From Nitrospira sp. (lineage in GTDB: Bacteria; Nitrospirota; Nitrospiria; Nitrospirales; Nitrospiraceae): 32,399 nt of DNA. The notes beneath the pieces were generated by a model that made no database searches, was not told where the DNA came from, and saw only the letters and a program-made list of their open reading frames with translations. Location: NCBI GenBank assembly GCA_024331085.1, contig JANDJG010000020.1, forward strand, positions 1-32,399, given 5' to 3'. Positions 8,285 to 14,491 of the stretch are shown here, in pieces (positions within the stretch are counted from its first letter, which is position 1; the number at the start of each line of letters is the position of its first letter). The position numbers were made by a program, and so were the translations under genes.

Positions 8285-8314
8285 TTGACACCGCCTCGAA
8301 GCGGGTGCTACCAC
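8285..8314 (+). promoter_or_regulatory. Promoter of ubiE with extended -10, start codon 7 bases downstream
   Basis: Perfect -35 TTGACA (8285-8290), an 18-base spacer ending in TGC, and a weaker -10 TACCAC (8309-8314). The ATG follows after 7 bases without a Shine-Dalgarno, so the transcript would be leaderless or nearly so. Confidence 0.5.
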
Positions 8315-8321
8315 GGTCCCC

Positions 8322-9098
8322 ATGGTGCAAACCGAGGACCCCGCCGCGGCGCAACAGACGAAAGTGCAAGCCAAGGTCGTCTCGACGTGGTCCGGCCGGG
8401 CGCGCGAACAAGCCGTGCAACGGATGTTCACGGCCATTGCCGGCGTGTACGACCTGAACAACACGCTTTTAAGTTTCGGCCTTCATCACCGCTGGAAGAA
8501 AATCGCCGTTTCGTTCGTCACGCCGGTCGAGGGCGGCCTGGCGCTGGACGTGGGAGCCGGTACCGCCGACCTGGCGATTCTCGTGGAGCCGCGCATGGGC
8601 CCCAACGGGCATGTGATCGCATCCGACTTGAACCACGCCATGTTGGCCGAAGGGCTCAAGAAAGTGGCCGGCAAGGGGTTGGCCGGCAAGATCACCTGTT
8701 TGCAGGCGAGCGCCGAACGGTTGGGGTTTGCGGATGACGTCTTCGACGCGGTGACGACGGGCTTCTGCATGCGCAACGTCGGCAACTTGCCACTGGCCGT
8801 CGCCGAGATCCGCCGCATTCTCAAGCCAGGCGGCCGCTTCGTCTGTTTGGAATTCTCCCGCCCGGTCTATGGATGGCTGCGGACCCTGTATGACTGGTAC
8901 TCGTTTACGCTGCTCCCCTGGATCGGCACGAAAGTGGCCCGTGATTCCACCGGCGTGTATGAATATCTCCCGGCCTCGATCCGTACGTTTCCCGACCAAG
9001 AACGGCTGTGCCAGATTCTTCGCGAGGCGGGCTTCCGCCGGGTGGAATACCGAAACCTGACGGGAGGAATCGTGGCGATCCACGTGGCGACAAAATAA
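8322..9098 (+). CDS. ubiE: Demethylmenaquinone/ubiquinone C-methyltransferase, UbiE/MenG family
   Basis: SAM-dependent C-methyltransferase that adds the ring methyl group in menaquinone (or ubiquinone) synthesis. The 258-residue sequence has the UbiE signatures in order: YDLNNTLLSFGLHHRWKK (~43-60), SAM-binding motif I LDVGAGTADL (~75-84), motif II ASDLNHAML, RNVGNLPLAVAEIRRILKPG, and YLPASIRTFPDQERL near the C-terminus. In organisms that use only menaquinone the enzyme is called MenG. No other quinone genes are in the window, so the substrate is not settled. The N-terminal ~25 residues are an extension before the conserved part. The gene is monocistronic, with its own promoter and a hairpin-bearing gap downstream. 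Confidence 0.93.
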   Translation: MVQTEDPAAAQQTKVQAKVVSTWSGRAREQAVQRMFTAIAGVYDLNNTLLSFGLHHRWKKIAVSFVTPVEGGLALDVGAGTADLAILVEPRMGPNGHVIASDLNHAMLAEGLKKVAGKGLAGKITCLQASAERLGFADDVFDAVTTGFCMRNVGNLPLAVAEIRRILKPGGRFVCLEFSRPVYGWLRTLYDWYSFTLLPWIGTKVARDSTGVYEYLPASIRTFPDQERLCQILREAGFRRVEYRNLTGGIVAIHVATK

Positions 9099-9167
9099 CG
9101 TCGCCGGTCAGTTCCACGATCCGTCGCACCCCTGACCGACCCGCAAGGAATTCCCCAAGGCCGGGAC

Positions 9168-9195
9168 GGCCTGGATCATGACGCGTGATCAGGCC
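9168..9195. repeat. Inverted repeat downstream of ubiE
   Basis: GGCCTGGATCA and TGATCAGGCC pair over 10 bp with one bulged G around a TGACGCG loop. Neighbouring GGCC-rich half-sites (AAGGCCGGGACGGCC, AGGCCTTGAGGCCT) add further dyads. No T-tract follows, so it may be a REP-like palindrome or a factor-assisted terminator. Confidence 0.4.
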
Positions 9196-9250
9196 TTGAG
9201 GCCTGACGACCGGCGGGCCACCCCATCCGGCTCCATCCAGAGAGGGCGCC

Positions 9251-9280
9251 TTGCTTTCGGATTCAGCCCGATGCTATCAT
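9251..9280 (+). promoter_or_regulatory. Promoter of the universal-stress fusion gene
   Basis: -35 TTGCTT (9251-9256), 18-base spacer ending in TGC, and -10 TATCAT (9275-9280), forming the extended -10 TGCTATCAT. Predicted start is near 9287, giving a leader of about 88 bases before the ATG at 9375. Confidence 0.5.
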
Positions 9281-9374
9281 CCCACTTCTTCGGGGATCGC
9301 CCGCGCGGCGGTCTCAGAGATTCTCACGTAATGACGCGGACATAGTACTCTTCAGGGCCTGGGGGAAGTACTCC

Positions 9375-11477
9375 ATGTATAAGACCATTTATATCCCGGT
9401 TGATAATTCCGACCATTCCAACGCCGCCGTGGACATCGGCATCCACCTGGCGAAGCGATTCGGTTCCAAGATCGTCGGCAGCCATGTCTATGCCGCCAAA
9501 ATGCACGATAAACGCTTCAAGCAGATGGAGGCCGGTCTGCCGGAAGAGTATCACGACGAGAAAGAACTCGACCGCCAGCGCCAAATTCACGATTCCTTGA
9601 TCACGCGCGGGCTTCAAATCATCACGGACTCGTATCTCGATTACGTGGACAAGAAGTGTTCGGAATCGAACCTGCCGATCGAACGCCGCTCTTTGGAGGG
9701 GCGCAACTGGAAGGTCCTGTCGGAAGACATCAACACCAACGGGTACGATCTCGTGATCATGGGGGCCTTGGGGGTGGGGGCCGTCAAGGAGAGCGTGATC
9801 GGCAGCAACACGGAGCGGGTGGTCCGTCGCGTGCGCAACTCCGACATGTTGATCGTCAAGAACGTCCAACCGATGCAGGCGGGCAAGATCGTGGTCGCGA
9901 TCGACGGCAGCCCCTATTCGTTCGGCGGCCTGATGACCGCCCTGCAACTCGGCAAGGCGTTCGACATGCCGGTCGAGGCGATTTCCGCCTTCGACCCCTA
10001 TTTTCACTACGCCGCCTTTCACAGCATTTCCGGCGTCTTGAACGAGGAAGCCGGGAAGGTGTTCCGTTTCAAAGAGCAGGAAAAACTGCACGAAGAAATC
10101 ATCGACAGCGGTTTGGCCAAAATCTACCAGTCGCACCTCGACATCGCGCGCGAGATCGCCCAGACCGAACAATCGGATCTCAAGACGACCCTCCTCGACG
10201 GAAAAGCGTTTGAGAAAATCATTCAATATGTTCGTAAAGACGTCCCGGCCCTGCTGATCGTCGGCCGGATCGGGGTGCACAGCGACGAGGACATGGACAT
10301 CGGCAGCAACACGGAAAACCTGCTGCGCAGCGCGCCTTGTAACGTTCTCGTCTCGAACAGAAAGTACGTGCCGCCGATCGATACGCAGGCGGAGTACACC
10401 ATCGCCTGGACCGAAGAAGCCCTCCGCCGCATGGAAAAGATCCCCGTCTTCGCCCGCGGAGTCGCCAAGACCGCCATTCACCGCTATGCGATCGAAAAGG
10501 GCCACACGATCATCAGCAATACGGTCGTGGACGCGGCGGTCGGTCATATCCTGCCCAAGGGAGCCATGGAGGCCATGAGGGCGCTGGGCGGAAGCCTCGA
10601 TCAAGCCGGTATCGATCGGAACAAAATGCAGGCCGACGACGCGGTGGCGCAAGACCTGATGGGCGCGACCTTGAGCGGCATCATGACGCAAATCGTCGAG
10701 GAGAAGCCCAAGACGTCCGATTCGACGCAGGCCTATCTGGATCGCATGAGCCAAAATTATTTCGTGTGCGACGGCTGCGGTTACATCGGAAAAGGCGACA
10801 CACCGGTGAAATGTCCGGTCTGCGGCGCGGACGGCGCGCGATTCAAACAGGTGGACAAGACGATCTTCGAAGCGGCGGCCCAGGCCGAAGGGGGACTGGA
10901 AACGGACGTAGCCTACGACGACGTCCCCATGCAGTGGACCAAAGACGCAAAAGAAGCCATCCGGGCCGTCCCGGCCGGCTTTCAACGGCGTCGGGCCAAG
11001 GCCAAGATCGAGAAGAGCGCCCGCAAACTCGGCATGACCACCGTCACCTTGGAATTTGCCGCCCCCATGATTAAAGAGGCGGCGTCGGAAGATTACCGTC
11101 CGATCTTCTCTAACAAGGGAATGGGAATCTCCTCGGAGGCGGCGGCCAAACTGGGAATTGCGGGAGGGGCGACCGACCAGCACGGCAACGGCGCCCATGC
11201 CCTTGATGAAACGAAGGTCCAACAGGAGGCCGATGCTTCCCCCTATACCTGGACCGCGGAAGCGCAGGCACGGCTGGAACGGGCACCGGAAGGCTTCATG
11301 CGGGATTGCACAAAGGCTTTGATCCTGAAACACGCGGAAAAGATCGGCGTGACCCATATTACGCTGGAAGTCGCCAACGAAGGGATCGAACAGGCCAAAG
11401 GCTACATGGCCGAGGCCATGAAAACCGGTAATCTCAAAAGCATGATCGCGGATCTGACCGGAAAAGGACGCGCCTAG
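9375..11477 (+). CDS. Tandem universal-stress protein fused to a zinc ribbon and three PCP_red-like domains
   Basis: A 700-residue multidomain protein. Residues 1-165 and 170-330 are two UspA domains. Each keeps the nucleotide-binding pattern G-x2-G-x9-G-S (G130/G133/G143 and G297/G300/G310), so both may bind ATP. Residues ~342-392, 518-568 and 622-672 are three copies of a ~50-residue motif: W-T-x-E/D-A, then hydrophobic-x-x-x-P, an Arg/Lys-rich helix, and a final I-T/V-T-L-E-type strand. This matches the PCP_red domain (PF08369) found at the C-terminus of the ChlB/BchB subunit of dark protochlorophyllide reductase. Between copies 1 and 2 is a rubredoxin-like ribbon, C465-x2-C468 and C480-x2-C483. 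GGGGGAAG precedes the ATG. The downstream radical-SAM protein carries the same C-terminal motif. The function is unknown. A stress-responsive tetrapyrrole or metal role is an inference. Confidence 0.85.
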   Translation: MYKTIYIPVDNSDHSNAAVDIGIHLAKRFGSKIVGSHVYAAKMHDKRFKQMEAGLPEEYHDEKELDRQRQIHDSLITRGLQIITDSYLDYVDKKCSESNLPIERRSLEGRNWKVLSEDINTNGYDLVIMGALGVGAVKESVIGSNTERVVRRVRNSDMLIVKNVQPMQAGKIVVAIDGSPYSFGGLMTALQLGKAFDMPVEAISAFDPYFHYAAFHSISGVLNEEAGKVFRFKEQEKLHEEIIDSGLAKIYQSHLDIAREIAQTEQSDLKTTLLDGKAFEKIIQYVRKDVPALLIVGRIGVHSDEDMDIGSNTENLLRSAPCNVLVSNRKYVPPIDTQAEYTIAWTEEALRRMEKIPVFARGVAKTAIHRYAIEKGHTIISNTVVDAAVGHILPKGAMEAMRALGGSLDQAGIDRNKMQADDAVAQDLMGATLSGIMTQIVEEKPKTSDSTQAYLDRMSQNYFVCDGCGYIGKGDTPVKCPVCGADGARFKQVDKTIFEAAAQAEGGLETDVAYDDVPMQWTKDAKEAIRAVPAGFQRRRAKAKIEKSARKLGMTTVTLEFAAPMIKEAASEDYRPIFSNKGMGISSEAAAKLGIAGGATDQHGNGAHALDETKVQQEADASPYTWTAEAQARLERAPEGFMRDCTKALILKHAEKIGVTHITLEVANEGIEQAKGYMAEAMKTGNLKSMIADLTGKGRA

Positions 11478-11562
11478 CTCGTCTCGCGTCATCGCTTCAT
11501 GACACGGCTCCGGAGAGGCTTCCTTCGTCCTACGTCCTGTTTCGTCTGCGCGGCAGGACGAC

Positions 11563-11568
11563 TATAAT
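11563..11568 (+). promoter_or_regulatory. Consensus -10 eight bases before the radical-SAM start codon
   Basis: A perfect TATAAT ends 8 bases before the ATG at 11577. Its spacing is identical to that at uvrA. It overlaps the alternative TTG start at 11568, which argues for the ATG and for a leaderless transcript. No clear -35 is present. Confidence 0.45.
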
Positions 11569-11576
11569 TGACTCGC

Positions 11577-12941
11577 ATGGGCAAATCGCTTCCCATTCTG
11601 AATCCGTCTCCCGCGCCGGGCTCTCCACCGTACCAGAGTCTCGGCGACCACTCTCCTTCGCCGCTTCGGGACGGACGAACCGTCGATGACTTCAAACCCT
11701 ATCTCGTCGCGCTCAACCTGACCAAGCGGTGCAATCTGAAATGCGACCACTGCTATCTCGACGCCACCACCAGGGCGTCGGGCGGCCATGACGAACTGTC
11801 CACCGAAGAATGTTTCCGACTGATCGACCAGATTGCCGAGGTCAACAAAGGCTGTCTGCTGGTCATCACGGGCGGCGAGCCGCTGGTGCGGCCGGACATC
11901 CTCGACATCGCCCGCTATGCCGTGAACGCCGGCTTCATGGTCGTCCTGGGGACAAACGGGATGCTGATCGACGATCGGATCGCCAAAACCCTGGTCGAGA
12001 TCGGCGTGATGGGGGTGGGCATCAGTATCGACTCGCTGGACCCTGCCAAACACGACGCGTTCCGCGGCATTCCGGGAGCGTGGAACGCTGCGGTCGCCGG
12101 TATCGAAGCCGGCAAGCGCAACGGCCTCCAGTTTCAAATTCATTTCAGCGTCCAGCCTATGAACTATCAAGAACTGCCCCAGGCCATCGAGTGGGCCCAT
12201 CGGCTCGGAGCCCGCGTGTTCAACGTGTTCTTCATGGTGTGCACGGGGCGGGGAGAAGAACTGACCGATATCACACCGGCTCAGTACGAAGAGGCGCTCG
12301 GCTATCTGGTCACTTGCCAGGACAATTACAAAGGCATGCTGGTCCGCGCCCGATGCGCGCCGCACTTCAAACGGCTGGCCTATGAGAAAGATCCGAACTC
12401 TCCCCTCACCAAGGCAACCGGCTACATGGGCGGCGGTTGCCTGGCCGGCACCAACTATGCCCGCGTGACCCCGAACGGCGAATTGACTCCTTGTCCCTAC
12501 ATGCCCCTCTCCGCCGGAAACGTGCGGCAGCACAGCTTCGTGGATCTGTGGAACCGCTCCGACATTTTCAACTCGTTCCGCTACCCTCAACTCAAAGGCA
12601 AATGCGGAGACTGTGAATATTCGGATATTTGCGGAGGGTGCCGCGCGCGTCCTTACGTGGATCACGGCGATTGGCTGGACGAGGATCAGTGGTGTCTGTA
12701 CACCCCCAAGGGCGGCGAAAAGATCAAAGTGGCGTTCAATACGCCGGAAGACATCCCGATCCAATGGGACGACGCCTCGTCGGTGCGTCTCAGCCGTATT
12801 CCTTATTTCCTGCGAGCCATGGTGAAAAAGGGCGTCGAAAAACACGCCAGGGAAAATAACATCTCACTGATTACCGTCGAGCTGATGGAAGAATTGCGCA
12901 AGAAGCGATTCGGCAACGACGCGCCGGTCTTTAAGTTTTAG
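11577..12941 (+). CDS. Radical SAM/SPASM protein, NirJ/AhbD-like, with C-terminal PCP_red-like domain
   Basis: A 454-residue radical-SAM enzyme. The [4Fe-4S]-SAM cluster motif C52-x3-C56-x2-C59 sits in LTKRCNLKCDHCYLD, followed by GGEP (~99-102) and a TNGML strand. The C-terminal SPASM-type region supplies further cysteines for auxiliary clusters (C288, C306, C343, C346, C352, C355, C373), including CGDCEYSDICGGCRAR. This layout resembles the haem-pathway enzymes NirJ and AhbD and peptide-maturation SPASM proteins. Residues ~393-446 (IQWDDASSVRLSRIPYFLRA and onward) add a PCP_red-like domain, the same as in the upstream protein. The ATG at 11577 is chosen over the TTG at 11568 because a TATAAT overlaps the latter. 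There is no Shine-Dalgarno. The substrate is unknown. Tetrapyrrole modification is the leading inference. Confidence 0.88.
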   Translation: MGKSLPILNPSPAPGSPPYQSLGDHSPSPLRDGRTVDDFKPYLVALNLTKRCNLKCDHCYLDATTRASGGHDELSTEECFRLIDQIAEVNKGCLLVITGGEPLVRPDILDIARYAVNAGFMVVLGTNGMLIDDRIAKTLVEIGVMGVGISIDSLDPAKHDAFRGIPGAWNAAVAGIEAGKRNGLQFQIHFSVQPMNYQELPQAIEWAHRLGARVFNVFFMVCTGRGEELTDITPAQYEEALGYLVTCQDNYKGMLVRARCAPHFKRLAYEKDPNSPLTKATGYMGGGCLAGTNYARVTPNGELTPCPYMPLSAGNVRQHSFVDLWNRSDIFNSFRYPQLKGKCGDCEYSDICGGCRARPYVDHGDWLDEDQWCLYTPKGGEKIKVAFNTPEDIPIQWDDASSVRLSRIPYFLRAMVKKGVEKHARENNISLITVELMEELRKKRFGNDAPVFKF

Positions 12942-13023
12942 CGCGTCGCTCGCAACGCCCATGAACGGGCCGAACGCGGATGCACCCCTCGGGTGACCGT
13001 TTCTCTTGCAGGACACATCGCAC

Positions 13024-13533
13024 ATGGACGCTTTGCAACAGGTCTTTTTTGATCTCAACACGCTCATTCCGATTCTCAATCACTGGATTCACCTTCTCTC
13101 GGCGGTGATCTGGATCGGCGGCCTCGCTTTTCTTGTTTTGGCGGTCACCCCGGGCCTTCAAACGGCCGTGCCGAAGGAGCAGGTCAAACCGATCACGGAC
13201 GTCTTCTACCGTCACTATAAGAAAGTGGCGGGCATTCTCTTGGTCGTCCTCCTGTTTACCGGCGGCATCAATCTGCACTACGTCAATCAGGTCATCACGT
13301 CGCAAACCGGCGCGGGCATGCAGCATCATGCCAAGTATCTGATCGTTTTTTGCATCAAATTGCTCCTCGTGCTCGGCCTTCTCACGCTCTTTTTGTACAC
13401 CGTGATTTTCAAATCCGATGACCAAGCCGAAGAAGGCGAGACCTACGAGGTCATTCCGTTTCAGCGCGCCGCGCTATGGATGGGGTTCTTTATCGTGCTG
13501 TGCGCCGCCGCGATGAAACACCTGCATCTTTGA
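13024..13533 (+). CDS. Four-helix membrane protein with intramembrane histidines, CopD/HemJ-like
   Basis: A 169-residue protein with four hydrophobic helices (about 15-45, 68-90, 100-130 and 147-166). The first carries LNHWIHLLSAVIWIGGLAF, the histidine-containing pattern of CopD-domain and HemJ-like proteins. Further histidines lie at the second helix (YRHY, INLHY), before the third helix (QHHAKY) and at the C-terminus (KHLHL), so paired axial haem ligation or metal binding is plausible. The ATG at 13024 is chosen because AGGA lies about 10 bases upstream. The TTG at 13006 has no such site. It follows the radical-SAM gene by 82 bases on the same strand, so it could belong to the same transcription unit. 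Family membership is tentative. Confidence 0.75.
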   Translation: MDALQQVFFDLNTLIPILNHWIHLLSAVIWIGGLAFLVLAVTPGLQTAVPKEQVKPITDVFYRHYKKVAGILLVVLLFTGGINLHYVNQVITSQTGAGMQHHAKYLIVFCIKLLLVLGLLTLFLYTVIFKSDDQAEEGETYEVIPFQRAALWMGFFIVLCAAAMKHLHL

Positions 13534-13590
13534 AAAACGAATCGCGGGGCCGCTTGCGGAGTCCGGAAAATCGGCAGGCGCGGACGGAAG

Positions 13591-14352
13591 TCATCGCGAA
13601 CGCTTCGGGTCGGACCACGCCCGTTTGAAAACCGTTCTGAGACCGAAATAGCCGATCGAGTCCTTCAGATTCGAATAGAGCCGCTTGATCGGATTCATGT
13701 CCGAATTCGTCACGTACTCCATCGTCAACACGATCCGCTCTTCTCCTTCTCCGAGAGGCGTGACGGCGTGCCAGAGCTTGTCGCCGTTGAAAATCACCAG
13801 GTCTCCCGGCTCGGTGACCAGTTCAAGATGACGGAGCGGTTTCGTCGGATGATTCTTGAAGAGGTCGCATACCAACTTGCAGCACGTTGACCGGTCGACC
13901 AACCCCATCAAAATCGTATAGCGCGCCCCCTTGTAATACGACGTGTCATAGTGAAAGCCGATGTGGTCCCCCGGCTCCGTGTAGTAGTAGAGCGCGCACG
14001 CGTGGGGATCATTGTCCGGGCAGACCATCACGTCCGCGTCCGTAAGCCGATTGAGGAAACGTTTGAACGATTCCGATCGGTAGATATCCAAAAAACGGGG
14101 GGCTTTTTCCTGGACCGTATAATAGCTGACGCTTCCGCCTTTCTTATGGCCGGGAATGTAGTTGCGATTGAGTTCGCCCTTCACGCCTTGCGCCTGCGGC
14201 ACCAGGACCTGTTCCACGAAGGCCCGCGGCAAAAACTGCTTGATGACCAGAAACTCTTCCTGATCCCAATACTCCCCGTGCAGCCGGTCGAGGTCCAACG
14301 CCGCCACCGCTTGATCGACCGCCTCCACCACGGTGTTTGCTTCACGTATCAT
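13591..14352 (-). CDS. 2-oxoglutarate/Fe(II)-dependent dioxygenase family protein
   Basis: A ~253-residue enzyme with the double-stranded beta-helix metal site: HYD (H136-x-D138, numbered from the ATG at 14358) in HIGFHYDTSYYKG, distal H197 in KLWHAVTPLGEG, and R208 in ERIVLTMEY as the likely 2-oxoglutarate carboxylate ligand. The aspartate is kept, so hydroxylation rather than halogenation is expected. The substrate is unknown. A cysteine-rich turn (RSTCCKLVCDLF) between the metal residues is notable. Two starts are possible: ATG 14358 with AAGGG only 3 bases upstream, or ATG 14352 with 9-base spacing, which is preferred here. It stands alone on the minus strand, convergent with the CopD-like gene, and has no obvious pathway partner. 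Confidence 0.85.
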   Translation of the reverse strand: MIREANTVVEAVDQAVAALDLDRLHGEYWDQEEFLVIKQFLPRAFVEQVLVPQAQGVKGELNRNYIPGHKKGGSVSYYTVQEKAPRFLDIYRSESFKRFLNRLTDADVMVCPDNDPHACALYYYTEPGDHIGFHYDTSYYKGARYTILMGLVDRSTCCKLVCDLFKNHPTKPLRHLELVTEPGDLVIFNGDKLWHAVTPLGEGEERIVLTMEYVTNSDMNPIKRLYSNLKDSIGYFGLRTVFKRAWSDPKRSR

Positions 14353-14491
14353 GGACATTCACCCTTCAGCAATTATTGGTCATAATCTCCACGATCGGAC
14401 CCGCCCGTTTTTCACCCCCGACCTTCCTCCCGATGATGCTCGCAGGACGATCCTCCGGCGCGCGGGAGGGCGCCGGCGGGAATCGCGCCTC

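Follow-up and report, generated by a model that had tools for sequence, protein, structure and literature searches.

Two adjacent genes of a Nitrospira sp. contig encode proteins with quite different cores, a tandem universal stress protein (UspA) and a radical SAM/SPASM protein, that share PCP_red (PF08369), a domain known from chlorophyll synthesis. What process does this pair serve? The stretch analysed, here called the window, comprises 32,399 nucleotides and belongs to a draft genome of 2.7 Mb that is 84% complete. The initial annotation placed the pair in a tetrapyrrole or metal-cofactor system with a link to stress, an interpretation that our results support in part. Drawing on domains, gene order, the relationship to AhbD, cysteine spacing and co-occurrence with a cytochrome bd-like oxidase, all read from sequence, we propose with moderate confidence that the pair is part of a conserved tetrapyrrole-processing module making or inserting haem for bd-like oxidase complexes. 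The relevant features of the window are as follows.

8322..9098, plus strand: MpqE, methyl-plastoquinone methyltransferase (NCBIfam NF052510, 408.7 bits, cut-off 335)
9375..11477, plus strand: tandem UspA / three-copy PCP_red / rubredoxin-like fusion protein, 700 aa (Pfam, alignment, AF2 model)
9375..9857, plus strand: UspA domain 1, residues 1-161, ATP motif G130-2x-G133-9x-G143-S (Pfam and alignment)
9888..10355, plus strand: UspA domain 2, about residues 172-327, ATP motif G297-2x-G300-9x-G310-S (Pfam and alignment)
10407..10538, plus strand: PCP_red copy 1 (54.3 bits)
10761..10847, plus strand: rubredoxin-like domain, CxxC...CxxC (RUBY_RBDX, 2.8e-06)
10935..11057, plus strand: PCP_red copy 2 (41.7 bits)
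11250..11375, plus strand: PCP_red copy 3 (34.4 bits)
11577..12941, plus strand: radical SAM/SPASM protein of a family sister to AhbD, with C-terminal PCP_red (Pfam, NCBIfam, tree, cysteine motif)
12765..12899, plus strand: PCP_red copy 4 (52.8 bits)
13024..13533, plus strand: CopD-like protein (sub-cut-off Pfam and NCBIfam matches, homologue alignment)

Both proteins of the pair give strong matches to the PCP_red model and carry four copies in all, as the initial annotation had stated; scored singly, the copies reach 34.4-54.3 bits, each above the curated cut-off of 32.5 bits. The first protein matches UspA twice (6.2e-33) and PCP_red three times (whole-protein 1.5e-31) in Pfam. The domain initially annotated as a zinc ribbon is present, and its identity is rubredoxin-like (27.1 bits, RUBY_RBDX cut-off 26.5). 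The best PDB fold for the AF2 model of this protein is Rv2623 (3cis), with UspE also matched, and like these tandem universal stress proteins it has the ATP motif G-2x-G-9x-G(S/T) in both domains; all three glycines of G-2x-G-9x-G-S are invariant in each domain across 29 aligned homologues. A putative link to stress rests on this UspA fold and the intact ATP motifs. Unlike Rv2623 and UspE, the window protein has invariant histidine-containing inserts and a C-terminal PCP_red/rubredoxin-like tail. Seven histidines of the UspA part (H37, H44, H72, H211, H239, H254 and H302), most of them inside the unusual inserts, are invariant in the 29 sequences and are candidates for a possible metal or haem site. 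An antisense ORF (9324-11492, minus strand, 722 aa) is a mirror of the UspA gene without support and was discarded.

The second protein, which the ORF caller starts at TTG 11568 (11568-12941, plus strand), matches Radical_SAM (2.4e-23), SPASM (4.3e-10) and PCP_red (6.8e-13; 48.9 bits) in Pfam. We prefer ATG 11577 as the start codon, because homologues begin there and TTG 11568 is judged too early; for the same reason ATG 13024 is preferred over TTG 13006 for the gene that follows. The product of that third gene had been described as a four-helix protein with histidines in CopD/HemJ-like positions. A CopD match is present yet below cut-off (PF05425, 20.7 against 32.1 bits; NCBIfam CopD, 5e-09, also below cut-off). 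The Pfam scan of this protein gave no match to PF03653 (HemJ), and hhalign against a single HemJ sequence returned a non-significant probability of 3.6%. Residues H29 and K118 of this protein (counting from TTG 13006) do not vary among 18 homologues, and members of its family are also neighbours of the radical SAM gene in Poribacteria and in locus L112. A promoter scan of positions 8300-13700 found no sigma-70-like site.

In order to determine how widely this arrangement is conserved, we examined the loci of homologues. Radical SAM/PCP_red proteins occur in Nitrospira and other Nitrospirota, Nitrospinota, Brocadia, Scalindua and Poribacteria, and additionally in Gallionella/Nitrosomonadales, Casimicrobiaceae and other proteobacteria. 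The pair itself is conserved in Nitrospirota, Poribacteria and proteobacteria, and the neighbourhood of the two genes is maintained in relatives and across phyla, as the initial annotation would require. Of the 79 loci with upstream sequence longer than 1.5 kb, 55 have the UspA/PCP_red gene directly 5' of the radical SAM gene (gap -100 to 300 bp); L021/L076 and L026/L077 are each one contig counted twice in this total. A larger overlap in four alphaproteobacterial loci is probably explained by start codons called too early. In three Poribacteria and in L112 the UspA/PCP_red gene is found 2.5-6.7 kb away within the same cluster; in Brocadia, Scalindua and two Nitrospinota loci the surroundings of the radical SAM gene showed none. 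One Brocadia locus (L097:8998-14423), with no USP gene nearby, contains a radical SAM gene with three PCP_red copies followed by a sensor histidine kinase, a response-regulator-like gene and a transglutaminase-like protein. Literature searches for PCP_red together with UspA or radical SAM returned no relevant paper, and a non-exhaustive search found none describing the module.

PCP_red is the same Pfam domain as the C-terminal domain of BchB/ChlB in dark protochlorophyllide reductase (DPOR), and the window copies match BchB and the solved domains 2l09 and 2kru. Unlike BchB/ChlB, the window proteins have no nitrogenase-like core, and PCP_red occurs in them in multiple copies and in unrelated proteins; BchB models match them by the C-terminal domain only, and neither is recognised as DPOR subunit B. 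In the window genome, 12 PCP_red matches are spread over five proteins, namely the pair, a four-copy protein and two zinc-ribbon proteins with two copies each, and eight further genomes sampled from the same family have 11-12 copies apiece. One of the two zinc-ribbon proteins has a relative (in G009) that adjoins an Mrp-type ATPase; the other is encoded on contig C51. An order of Mrp/NBP35-type ATPase and then zinc-ribbon/PCP_red protein was observed in Nitrospiraceae and Poribacteria alike (L144:4157-5865, L104:4342-5839). The domain is also fused to tetrapyrrole-related proteins. Two family f7 loci (L122:2584-3972, L123:990-2378) encode a near-cut-off AhbD (489 of 500 bits) with a C-terminal PCP_red that falls inside the AhbD clade, which on the core-domain tree is an acquisition separate from that of the window family, and in family f10 (L030:4552-5679, L031:4036-5061) PCP_red is fused N-terminally to a chlorite dismutase/HemQ-fold domain. 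A role of PCP_red as a metal-binding domain was considered and rejected: it has no conserved His or Cys, its main conserved positions being W, P, F, R, E, A and G.

AhbD is the radical SAM haem b synthase of the sirohaem-dependent pathway. The radical SAM protein of the pair resembles it in its CX3CX2C motif (C55/59/62) and in an eight-cysteine SPASM motif with AhbD spacing (C263/291/309/346/349/355/358/376). The full motif, CX20-33CX17CX36-37CX2CX5CX2CX17-35C, is present in 90 of 90 family members; among controls, it is found in five of six plain AhbD and none of five AhbC sequences. It was published (PMC10452713) as a feature of AhbD in methanogens and sulphate reducers. In a core-domain tree built without NirJ2 sequences, the radical SAM/PCP_red family forms a clade (93/96) whose sister is Nitrospirota AhbD (99/95); AhbC lies outside (100/100), and the window protein is not inside the AhbD clade; identity between the family and plain Nitrospirota AhbD sequences in the alignment is 35-37%. 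NCBIfam ranks NirJ2 first for the window protein (TIGR04055, putative haem d1 biosynthesis; 322.5 bits), followed by AhbD (TIGR04545; 315.9-316.9 bits), both under their equivalog cut-offs of 500 bits. Unlike the context of NirJ2, no nir genes were seen near the window gene. Unlike AhbD, the window family combines a score of about 317 bits with an extra C-terminal PCP_red and an adjoining UspA fusion gene, and is additional to complete haem b routes.

The initial annotation had reported no other haem genes. This holds for the window genes checked, and no protoporphyrinogen oxidase (PPO) gene is adjacent to the pair in the window itself, but haem genes do adjoin the pair in other lineages. At 15 distinct loci the gene next to the radical SAM gene encodes a flavoprotein (family F8) that is a PPO homologue (241 bits, cut-off 97.85). 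In family f9 it is additional to a PPO encoded beside ferrochelatase; in 14 proteobacterial carriers it is the sole such flavoprotein, and since HemJ is also present in 11 of these 14 genomes, the F8 protein is extra there. HmuY follows the pair in family f7. Together with the sister relationship to AhbD, the cysteine spacing and the fusions to AhbD-like and Cld/HemQ-fold proteins, the PPO and HmuY neighbours point to the tetrapyrrole side of the system first proposed.

We compared the family with the haem b routes of its hosts. Family f1 has genes for PPO, ferrochelatase and a Cld/HemQ-type protein and no HemN equivalog (HemF was outside the search), family f9 (G008, G049) has HemN and ferrochelatase, and families f3, f7 and f8 have AhbC- and AhbD-type genes and no ferrochelatase (AhbD was not found in G012). 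The radical SAM/PCP_red gene coexists with each of these three routes, that is ChdC-type, HemN/HemH and AhbC/AhbD, and therefore its product is probably not the organism's own haem b enzyme. The chief rival to our interpretation takes the opposite position, in which the protein would be a second AhbD, an oxygen-independent coprohaem decarboxylase that takes over haem b formation where the peroxide-dependent ChdC (HemQ) fails, partnered at low oxygen by the UspA protein. AhbD proteins are indeed the closest relatives, with a cysteine motif identical in spacing, and in Nitrospiraceae, where CgoX-, ferrochelatase- and Cld/HemQ-type genes occur and a HemN equivalog does not, coprohaem is a likely intermediate. 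AhbD and HemQ catalyse the same step in different organisms (PMC7242693), and several UspA proteins of N. marina, which may or may not include the UspA/PCP_red protein, rise at low O2 (PMC8115632). However, the family is also found where a separate AhbD exists (G002, G006, G007 and G016) and in G008 and G049, where the HemN/HemH route makes no coprohaem, and it forms a clade apart from AhbD with scores far under the cut-off. We regard a second AhbD as unlikely, though still a serious contender.

Less likely again is that the radical SAM/SPASM protein acts in protein or peptide maturation, for instance on a subunit of the cytochrome complex, with PCP_red as a helical docking module only. The AF2 model of the protein is good (pLDDT 84), and the solved folds nearest to it, PqqE and SuiB and also SkfB and anSME, are peptide or protein modifiers. 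No AhbD structure was among the comparisons, and SuiB likewise headed the structural matches reported for an AhbD model (PMC10452713). The lack of a conserved His or Cys in PCP_red able to ligate metal would suit a docking module. NCBIfam, however, places the haem enzymes NirJ2 and AhbD at about 320 bits against at most 146 bits for peptide maturases, and the PPO and HmuY neighbours and the Cld, AhbD and BchB fusions speak for tetrapyrroles.

Proteins that bind or degrade haem for trafficking, sensing or salvage, as opposed to building a cofactor, would account for the HmuY neighbour in f7, for the rubredoxin-like domain and conserved histidine-containing inserts of the UspA protein, and for a haem-oxygenase-like neighbour in locus L075. 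No transporter accompanied the pair in the annotated loci, however, and the PPO neighbour would be left unexplained; we consider this improbable.

The reading in which the module makes or inserts haem for a bd-like oxidase is supported by co-occurrence. Among Nitrospirota, 21 genomes carry the pair, whole or in part, and a search with the bd-like oxidase subunit of about 625 aa encoded in Nitrospiraceae found it in 19 of them, versus none of 40 others. Fisher tests of this association, which ignore relatedness, give 7e-14 at the level of genomes, 4e-07 for genera and 2e-04 for families, and the co-occurrence is confounded by phylogeny (5/5 versus 0/11 families). In other phyla 23 of 25 carriers have a bd-like oxidase; in eight of these it shares a contig with the radical SAM gene, no more than about 25 kb apart. 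Four carrier genomes (G008, G002, L084 and L100), some of them incomplete, yielded no bd-like gene, and none is adjacent to the pair in the window; the bd-like oxidase genes of this genome are on other contigs. The near-constant co-occurrence suggests an undescribed route for making or fitting the haem of the oxidase.

Gene order provides a second connection. In all seven Nitrospiraceae genomes examined, a zinc-ribbon protein gene with two PCP_red copies is in an operon with genes for a protein of about 350 aa and a bd-like oxidase subunit of about 625 aa. Locus L076 is a contiguous same-strand array of bd-like, dihaem c, trihaem EB_dh (alt-NxrC-like), UspA-PCP_red, radical SAM-PCP_red and PPO genes, bd-like genes are within the same locus in L098 and L106, and a single cluster in L112 brings together cytochrome b, octahaem c, UspA-PCP_red, Mrp, zinc-ribbon PCP_red, CopD-like and radical SAM-PCP_red genes. 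The module co-occurs with, and in several lineages adjoins, the bd-like oxidase/alt-NxrC cluster of Nitrospira, Nitrospina and anammox bacteria. Passages on this cluster in three papers (PMC6606698, PMC3578206, PMC8026999) call the oxidase enigmatic and report its synteny with alt-NxrC and cytochromes c; they mention a zinc-finger protein and no radical SAM, UspA or PCP_red component. The oxidase's cofactors and function are described as unsettled in two of them (PMC3578206, PMC8026999). According to PMC6606698, every Nitrospira genome analysed by 2019 was reported to be missing a canonical haem-copper oxidase, and bd-like oxidases may take its place; a few Nitrospira were subsequently found to have a cbb3 oxidase (PMC8115632).

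We infer the substrate, the chemistry, the role of PCP_red and the delivery to the oxidase as follows. The module would serve bd-like oxidase complexes in nitrite oxidisers, in anammox bacteria and in certain further lineages. The radical SAM/SPASM protein, an AhbD paralogue, would most likely carry out radical chemistry on a haem or porphyrin side chain, probably a propionate, while the tandem UspA protein would bind ATP and partner it. The repeated PCP_red domains may hold the tetrapyrrole, pass it on, or mediate docking between the proteins. Further components may be the CopD-like membrane protein, the zinc-ribbon/PCP_red proteins beside the Mrp ATPase and in the bd-like operon, and, in other lineages, the dedicated PPO homologue; the product would be haem made or inserted for the oxidase. 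A more specific and more tentative version, to which we give a smaller though still appreciable chance, is an undescribed pathway in which the AhbD-paralogue radical SAM protein, the UspA-PCP_red protein, the extra PPO homologue and the zinc-ribbon/PCP_red handlers yield a modified haem required by the bd-like oxidases, which in nitrite oxidisers and anammox bacteria are the putative terminal oxidases or complexes for reverse electron flow. If the proposal is true, a co-inherited haem-enzyme module makes the haem content of bd-like oxidases directly testable, and PCP_red gains a wider role in tetrapyrrole handling.

A part in methyl-plastoquinone biosynthesis, suggested by MpqE upstream of the pair in the window and in most Nitrospira loci, is very improbable, given that MpqE does not adjoin the pair outside Nitrospira and no other quinone gene is nearby in the annotated loci; MpqE itself probably lies outside the system. 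In most Nitrospira relatives a gene for a B12-type radical SAM protein (about 550 aa) separates MpqE from the UspA gene; this intervening gene is absent from the window (9099-9374) and from L038. Just downstream of the three genes, on the opposite strand (13594-14358), the window encodes a 2OG-Fe(II) oxygenase with a significant match to the halogenase HalD (2.3e-10). Additionally, a Nitrospirota genome free of PCP_red (L119:3126-7625) carries an AhbD - HemE - ferrochelatase - PPO operon, which seems to represent a coproporphyrin route ending in AhbD instead of HemQ.
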